Shown piece by piece: positions 3,259 to 3,711 of a stretch of 64,000 bases of DNA. Numbering within the stretch: position 1 is the first letter of the stretch; each line of letters starts with the position of its first letter. The notes under the pieces were generated by a model, which did not search any database, was not told the DNA's origin, and saw only the letters and a list, made by a program, of their open reading frames with translations. The stretch is from NCBI RefSeq assembly GCF_014205835.1, contig NZ_JACHCQ010000029.1:1-64000 (forward strand), in the 5' to 3' direction. Origin of the DNA: Pedobacter sp. AK013. GTDB lineage: Bacteria > Bacteroidota > Bacteroidia > Sphingobacteriales > Sphingobacteriaceae. The translations under genes and the position numbers were made by a program.

Positions 3259-3343
3259 CGGAGAGGGCGGGATTCGAACCCGCGGTACCTTGCAGTACAC
3301 ACGCTTTCCAAGCGTGCTCGATCGACCACTCTGACACCTCTCC
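3259..3343 (-). tRNA. tRNA-Ser (anticodon GGA)
   Basis: On the minus strand the acceptor GGAGAGG pairs with CCTCTCC, with discriminator G at 3259; CCA is not encoded. The anticodon arm is CACGC-TTGGAAA-GCGTG, giving anticodon GGA. The variable arm is long (class II) and the T arm carries GGGTTCGAATCCC, all as expected for serine. The 5' end lies only 2 nt after the stop codon of the GIY-YIG gene, and no promoter box stands directly upstream. It is therefore probably processed from a transcript that begins near 3700, beyond a broken copy of its own 5' half. Confidence 0.95.
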
Positions 3344-3345
3344 GG

Positions 3346-3588
3346 TTATATGATGTTATTTTGTTTCAAATAAATGTAGCCATTTACAGACTTATAATAT
3401 TGTTCTCTTCTAAAAGCCTCACTTCTTGAATTAAATTCTTCAAAAAAGTGAATGATGAAAGGGCGCCTAGCTTTCGTTGATTTTACATCTCCCCTATTAT
3501 GTTTGATTAATCTTATTTCCAGGTTTTCAGTACTTCCATAATAGTACTTCCCATCTTTCTCGCTTTTCAAAATATAACTATAAAACAT
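3346..3588 (-). CDS. small GIY-YIG nuclease domain protein
   Basis: An 80-residue protein consisting of one GIY-YIG core. The first strand is MFYSYILKSEKDGKYYYGST, with YSYIL and YYYGS in the GIY and YIG positions. An Arg follows in NLEIRLIKHN, and the conserved Glu lies in SRSEAFRREQYYKS. The length matches the stand-alone UPF0213/YhbQ-like family found in large numbers in Bacteroidetes. Members are structure-related to homing and UvrC-type endonucleases, but most have no assigned substrate. It reads in the same direction as tRNA-Ser and ends 2 nt before the tRNA. A broken copy of the tRNA 5' half lies 47 bp upstream of its start, which suggests that the gene arrived as a tRNA-targeting insertion. 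Confidence 0.85.
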   Translation of the reverse strand: MFYSYILKSEKDGKYYYGSTENLEIRLIKHNRGDVKSTKARRPFIIHFFEEFNSRSEAFRREQYYKSVNGYIYLKQNNII

Positions 3589-3634
3589 AATTATCTTTTA
3601 TTGCAAGTATACAAAGTTTAATTGTTAGTCCCTA

Positions 3635-3693
3635 CTTTCCAAGCGTGCTTGATCAACACTCCCCATAGGGGTCCTTTGGACTGACACCTCTCC
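3635..3693 (-). pseudogene. 5'-half fragment of tRNA-Ser with a 20-bp insertion
   Basis: Read on the minus strand, it starts GGAGAGGTGTCAG exactly like the intact tRNA at 3343. It then carries a 20-bp palindrome-bearing insert (3661-3680, containing CCCCTATGGGG) in the D arm. It resumes with AGTGTTGATCAAGCACGC and TTGGAAAG and diverges after the first base of the 3' anticodon stem. It lacks the 3' half, so it cannot be a functional tRNA. It is in direct orientation relative to the intact gene. Confidence 0.85.
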
Positions 3694-3703
3694 AAGTGGA
3701 TTG

Positions 3704-3711
3704 CAAAAGTA
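3704..3711 (-). promoter_or_regulatory. Bacteroidetes -7 box (TACTTTTG) in front of the tRNA-Ser fragment
   Basis: On the minus strand TACTTTTG fits TAnnTTTG and ends 10 bp before the 5' end of the broken tRNA-Ser copy, the spacing expected for a tRNA promoter. No good -33 TTG is visible. It probably was the original tRNA-Ser promoter and now drives fragment, GIY-YIG gene and tRNA together. Confidence 0.5.

Follow-up and report, generated by a model that had tools for sequence, protein, structure and literature searches.

We examined a 64,000-nt stretch of the Pedobacter sp. AK013 genome (contig NZ_JACHCQ010000029.1, positions 1 to 64,000; hereafter the window), in which the tRNA-Ser(GGA) gene beside the pyruvate kinase gene pyk is separated from its promoter by a small GIY-YIG nuclease gene and a partial copy of the same tRNA. 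This arrangement likely represents a selfish mini-element of homing type, about 310-370 bp long and made of one minimal GIY-YIG nuclease gene and of tRNA sequence which would restore the tRNA gene that it interrupts, and its working is best read by analogy with that of the phage endonuclease SegB. The anatomy of the locus, empty and filled alleles in relatives, a tie of the nuclease to tRNA species, purifying selection on its gene and tandem arrays were observed. All parts of the locus lie on the minus strand:

3704-3711, minus strand: promoter box TACTTTTG, sited for the displaced copy and 361 nt ahead of the intact tRNA
3635-3693, minus strand: displaced, degenerate 5' copy of tRNA-Ser, nucleotides 1-40 of 86, above chance, its alignment scoring 52 where the reversed form of that flank scored 16 (L058)
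3661-3680, minus strand: TCCAAAGGACCCCTATGGGG, a double hairpin of 20 nt inserted into the D-loop of the displaced copy
3346-3588, minus strand: single-domain GIY-YIG nuclease gene of 80 aa (open reading frame plus Pfam match; purifying selection in relatives)
3259-3343, minus strand: intact tRNA-Ser(GGA), two bases past the nuclease stop
3780-5210, minus strand: pyk (Pfam PF00224, E 1.1e-120), the conserved upstream neighbour, outside the element and used as reference for filled and empty sites

A first-pass annotation of this DNA had placed the box, the fragment, the nuclease gene and the intact tRNA on the minus strand, and all of these coordinates were confirmed in the sequence. Its statement that the promoter is spaced for the fragment and not for the intact tRNA also held: TACTTTTG is the sole match to TANNTTTG on the minus strand within 3201-3800, with no further such box between it and the intact tRNA. 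We take the box to fit the Bacteroidota -7 promoter consensus TAnnTTTG. The displaced copy, read from 3693 to 3635, consists of 13 nt, the 20-nt insert (3680-3661) and 26 nt, and it matched the tRNA of its own locus better than the tRNAs of other loci.

Empty sites with matching flanks, as the annotation had anticipated for an insertion, were found in close relatives at both tRNA-Ser(GGA) and tRNA-Arg(CCT). Among 30 tRNA-Ser loci from relatives, 8 were filled, 21 lacked a GIY gene over the 420 nt preceding the tRNA and 1 was not displayed. At empty pyk sites the same box directly precedes the intact tRNA, and alignment of the empty L039 with the filled L173, L060 and the window revealed a clean insert, roughly 350 bp long, that separates '...CAATCCAGCA' from the tRNA. 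On a pyk tree (32 loci in 24 distinct rows, at least one genome being repeated and one row uncounted), the filled or empty state switched 7 times, both directions of change taken together. At tRNA-Arg(CCT), 29 of 30 Pedobacter loci had no GIY match within 700 nt and one had; when the filled L077 was compared with the empty L247, the upstream homology (90%) extended to the last base before the tRNA and the insert measured about 370 bp, while L073 and L241 gave about 310 bp. For the window protein itself, tRNA-Ser(GGA) directly followed the nuclease gene at all 12 loci found, and by eye each of them had, ahead of the gene, a tRNA-Ser 5' copy interrupted by a short hairpin; four of the 12 genes (L010, L011, L015, L016) seemed, also by eye, to be disrupted by a stop or frameshift. 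Two of the relatives showed peculiarities: the empty L045 (G024) has about 20 extra bases between box and tRNA relative to its filled sister L012, which could be a loss scar, and L008 (P. borealis) has about 600 bp extra between pyk and the displaced copy, the distance from the pyk end to the tRNA being 1030 nt against about 435 in relatives.

The tRNA parts follow a simple rule. We call loci with the gene before the intact tRNA, as in the window, class I and those with the gene after it class II. Of 107 loci with a tRNA, 89 carried a further tRNA copy above threshold on the opposite side of the gene and 18 fell below it, the threshold (score 27 and 1.6 times that of the reversed flank) having been chosen after the scores were seen; remnants in L090, L159, L193 and L217 were assessed by eye. 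Class I copies began at nt 1-2 in 40 of 42 cases and extended to the 3' end in 2, whereas class II copies extended to the 3' end in 40 of 47 and began at nt 1-2 in 1 (pooled counts which hold four repeats in class I and one in class II). The nuclease gene therefore sits within a tRNA copy whose lost part is supplied by the complete tRNA. Thus tRNA fragments beside other GIY-YIG genes, which the annotation had looked to, are present at many loci of the subfamily. Together with the empty sites and the single promoter box, the outcomes by which the annotation had asked to be judged all favoured it. Its further proposal, an insertion carrying a replacement tRNA after cleavage in the anticodon region, stood in its first part: empty and filled alleles exist and, as far as the sequences tell, genes of the subfamily invariably or almost invariably have a complete tRNA restored beside them. 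The proposed cleavage site was not upheld, as the longest class I copies stop in the T-loop instead (L065, L066 and L069 for Ser; L073 and L077 for Arg, at nt 54 of 73; L014 and L017 by eye), and the copies of L064, L067 and L068 extend to the variable arm. We thus rejected the anticodon end of the window fragment as a mark of the cleavage point; that end is probably due to decay.

The association with tRNA genes was measured with profile A1, built from eight close relatives that are tRNA-Ser-linked members, so that the link holds for this subfamily and not for GIY-YIG proteins at large. Matches occurred in 52 of 251 family-level genomes, and 67 of the 72 matches listed lay within 1 kb of a tRNA gene called by ARAGORN, every one on the strand of the tRNA; a wider count of 71/77 adds three weaker matches from these loci and two from L091, which repeats L082. 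The five listed misses came from L090 (three matches), L159 and L160. By eye, tRNA 3' halves are present in L090 and perhaps a Leu-like remnant in L159. The GIY gene of L160 (1037-1405) lies behind a transfer-messenger RNA (tmRNA) gene, and L224 (2276-2636) is another tmRNA site; these two were the tmRNA genes that Rfam returned on nine loci, where a sub-threshold match to a norovirus element was put down to chance. As a control, the best 30 PF01541 matches in 198 class-level genomes were taken, and a tRNA was present within 1.5 kb in 1/30. In this exception, L133, the gene and a tRNA-Asn share one strand about 50 nt apart, and its score of 67 bits against the subfamily profile makes it a probable member.

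A3, a broader profile made from 36 sequences, matched in 91 of 148 phylum-level genomes. A tRNA lay within 1 kb at 29 of the 30 loci returned (L177 and L179 being repeats) and at 17 of 20 further hand-picked loci (L207, L209 and L211 being repeats), on the same strand in 46/46. L138-L157 and L206-L225 were both hand-picked from listings; about half of L138-L157 had no nearby tRNA, and those score low with A1. By eye, no tRNA or remnant was seen in L144 and L146, at the edge of the subfamily. The nearest tRNAs included Ser (GGA, GCT, TGA, CGA), Leu (TAA, CAA, GAG, CAG) and Arg (CCT, ACG, TCT, TCG), and further Met, Val, Asp, Glu, Gln, Thr, Ala, Pro, Cys, Lys and Gly. No relatives were found with A1 in the viral contigs searched, and a protein search of phages and plasmids returned 7 and 4 records, all below 60% identity. 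A second tRNA-linked GIY gene was noticed in the AK013 genome itself (L002, C21:57737-60949), with tRNA-Val(TAC) about 1 kb ahead and several Val fragments around the gene, one directly behind it.

We next consider the descent of the nucleases. On a tree of 81 nuclease proteins, which has few columns and good support at 7 of 77 inner branches, tRNA species switched 17 times (75 labelled rows, 16 states, minimum 15), against a mean of 48.8 and a lowest value of 44 in shuffles. Host genus needed 37 switches (72 rows, 21 states; shuffled mean 48.4, lowest 43), and class I or II needed 9 (shuffled mean 25.2). Judged from these counts, the nuclease tree tracks tRNA species much better than host genus. 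The displaced copy was closest to the intact tRNA of its own locus in 33 of 42 cases, with 5 ties and 4 in which another tRNA was better, a comparison that favours the own tRNA because copies were located by alignment to it; either insertion from near relatives or gene conversion keeping the copies alike would account for this likeness. Among the window, P. ginsenosidimutans, P. borealis and G008, synonymous divergence (dS) was 0.024-0.100 in the GIY gene as against 0.337-0.404 in the adjacent pyk, for which recent sharing of the nuclease gene between species is the simplest reading. In deeper pairs the two genes were about equal or GIY mildly lower, with GIY and pyk values of 0.511 vs 0.723 for the window and G026, 1.341 vs 1.319 for the window and P. 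aquatilis, and 0.443 vs 0.423 for Bi126 and P. psychrodurus. In the Ser group the ratio of nonsynonymous to synonymous divergence (dN/dS), where dS was estimable, was 0.04-0.17, indicating purifying selection.

These results bear on whether the loci are integrase-moved islands, or remnants of such, with tRNA genes as attachment sites and the GIY gene as cargo. The class II order of intact tRNA, insert and displaced 3' part does resemble an integrated element with its attachment repeats. Yet the roughly 350-bp insert of the window comprises the GIY open reading frame and tRNA parts only, with no integrase gene; inserts of 310-370 bp hold no other gene; the GIY gene is the constant part; class I displaces the 5' part; and the nuclease lineage follows tRNA species. 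We give this explanation hardly any credence.

The window protein belongs to the GIY-YIG nuclease superfamily, an assignment made from its domain, residues and predicted fold. The Pfam match to PF01541 reached 52.2 bits (cut-off 22.6) over residues 2-68 of 80, and PHROGs gave a weak homing endonuclease match (E 5e-4). Ten residues were invariant among 36 aligned members, including Y5, Y16, R26 and E62 (36/36), which we take to be the catalytic Tyr, Tyr, Arg and Glu of GIY-YIG enzymes. The predicted structure, with a mean predicted local distance difference test score (pLDDT) of 98, shows no second domain. Its best solved-structure matches were UPF0213 BH0048 (1zg2, E 6e-4) and Slx1 (template-modelling score about 0.65-0.73 by query length), I-TevI being weaker. 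As far as the model tells, Slx1 and UPF0213 thus resemble the window protein as single-domain GIY-YIG proteins; Slx1 acts in DNA repair with a partner, and we know of no tRNA link for either.

Tandem arrays of the unit were found at several loci. In L138 (942-5583), beside tRNA-Met, 10.2 copies of a 457-bp unit with 99% matches each consist of a tRNA-Met part, palindromes and a GIY gene, and tandem units of a tRNA part and a GIY gene amount to 8 genes in L206 and 3 in L208. Such arrays might speak for a host-useful device for tRNA duplication or dosage, in which GIY-driven tandem amplification near tRNA genes leaves old copies to decay; SegB of phage T6 is reported to drive tandem amplification of a tRNA-segB unit (PMC13096335). 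However, the three arrays whose units were read closely (L138, L206 and L208) repeat truncated, hairpin-interrupted tRNA parts and not working tRNAs, many loci carry single genes, and broken nuclease genes occur. A dosage device is therefore very unlikely.

Displaced copies are often interrupted by hairpins. Among class I copies 39 of 42, and among class II copies 21 of 47, carried a hairpin insert of at least 12 nt, and 73 inserts of 12-45 nt had a mean minimum free energy of -9.1 against -4.1 for shuffles. Cloverleaf loops, for which a share of about 0.4 is expected, held 58 of 71 inserts and 30 of 38 distinct isotype-position events; 3 distinct events fell in stems. The palindromes vary by lineage, and both kinds checked are dispersed in their genomes. 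The 20-mer of the window, a short double hairpin, is matched once in the window (0.02 expected) and occurs at about 7 other places in its own genome, where ARAGORN found no tRNA within 1.5 kb. The CCTGCC palindrome of other displaced copies was dispersed in 6 of 7 genomes searched, at 3 to 25 places each, and was found at zero places in the genome of the window. We thus rejected the 20-mer as a part of the element, since it is dispersed in the genome away from tRNA genes: the palindromic insert that the annotation had noted does sit in the fragment, but as a separate repeat which the nuclease element did not make. In the same genome (L020-L027; C3, C13, C15, C26 and C39), the double hairpin stands at several intergenic sites. 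Visual inspection often places it within a GTCATCCTG|AGCG...GAAGGATC palindrome, where it separates G from A just as it does in the tRNA copy.

The inserts may spoil the nuclease target, hinder deletion between tRNA repeats or block tRNA folding of the remnant. Their frequency in class I and mostly loop placement look more regular than plain decay, and the class I copy stands at the start of the nuclease transcript, which would suit a system acting at the RNA level. The nuclease would then have tRNA or its own transcript as substrate, while the interrupted copy would be a decoy, a regulator or an antitoxin-like RNA and not debris. On the other side, the copies are truncated, the place and kind of insert vary by lineage, the structural relatives Slx1 and I-TevI are DNA enzymes, and empty and filled alleles together with arrays fit DNA mobility better; an RNA-level system is in our judgment unlikely.

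The comparison with phages is closest for SegB of T4 and T6, which is described as a free-standing GIY-YIG homing endonuclease of the tRNA cluster (PMC13096335, PMC2988022). There, too, the GIY-YIG gene lies among or adjoining tRNA genes. SegB of T6 is described as cutting inside tRNA genes at the motif RAWTSGAAC, and the same paper reports no preferred isotype for segB (PMC13096335), whereas lineages here are tied to single tRNA species. In our reading, the reverse complement of that motif as given there fits the T-loop, where the longest class I copies end. The elements described here differ in being chromosomal, in having the gene inside a displaced copy of the same tRNA and in their hairpin-interrupted copies. 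They also encode 80 aa with no further domain, while SegB has a separate DNA-binding part behind its GIY-YIG domain. Because this part is missing and cutting is inferred, we did not class the window element as SegB.

Other systems share single traits. Mobile open reading frames of fungal mitochondria make hybrid genes, as described for Allomyces atp6 and for Glomus atp6, atp9, cox2 and nad3 (PMC3630166). By that account they likewise place an endonuclease reading frame in a gene, carry a replacement gene end and leave the native end displaced, which recalls the 5'-part and 3'-part rule; they differ in concerning mitochondrial protein genes and a foreign carried part, whereas the two tRNA copies here mostly match each other. 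The 20-nt inserts, two short adjacent hairpins in loops and spacers, recall mitochondrial double-hairpin and palindromic repeats, but they are bacterial and other lineages use other palindromes. Short dispersed palindromes are also a trait of REP (repetitive extragenic palindromic) sequences and their RAYT (REP-associated tyrosine transposase) enzymes; here they additionally interrupt displaced copies, and the inserts aligned had no RAYT gene. RAYT transposases are HUH enzymes. In the open-access literature searched, from which subscription papers and preprints are largely absent, no description of a chromosomal GIY-YIG/tRNA element was found.

If the homing reading is right, the nuclease would break a copy of its preferred tRNA gene that has not been invaded, and repair of the break would draw on an allele that has. 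The nuclease gene would thereby land inside a tRNA copy, with the complete tRNA on one side making good the missing part, and the displaced part (5' in class I, 3' in class II) would persist as a remnant, decay and gather hairpin inserts. Class I loci have the nuclease gene downstream of the tRNA promoter, and a shared transcript would then probably yield the intact tRNA. Several points weigh against this account. Cleavage and transfer are steps that we infer; the empty alleles could be losses through recombination between tRNA repeats; and low GIY dS could partly reflect constraint. An imported part should look foreign, yet the own tRNA was mostly the best match, so that a distant donor would need gene conversion. 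The intact tRNA keeps any site within the tRNA, leaving the sparing of the host's own copy unexplained, and a single domain of 80 aa lacks the DNA-reading part that SegB and I-TevI have.

A broader form of the homing reading, which we offer tentatively and hold to be rather doubtful, would see phylum-wide, very small homing elements with one catalytic domain and no domain for reading DNA, which recognise tRNA and tmRNA genes through the ability of their DNA to fold (as cruciform or hairpin), regrow the broken tRNA and are safe from the displaced copy since loop hairpins spoil the target, with separate lineages specialised on many tRNA species. If homing is at work, tRNA genes of Bacteroidota would be a standing target of a minimal mobile nuclease, which would explain the tRNA remnants and tandem arrays beside them. 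Phage SegB would gain a chromosomal counterpart, and small nucleases whose lineages are each bound to one tRNA species would be at hand as a natural collection. It would then be testable how a homing element lives on an essential gene without host death, and why displaced copies are so frequently interrupted by hairpins.

Two minor observations were made in the same genome. Two small GIY-YIG genes of another subfamily (L001 and L003, on C27 and C39) lie amid REP-like palindromes at loci where a tRNA is absent, and perhaps encode a palindrome-linked nuclease. Within the window, positions 154-525 hold two near-identical open reading frames of 58 codons, rich in Gly and Pro, which suggests a repetitive coding region on one strand.
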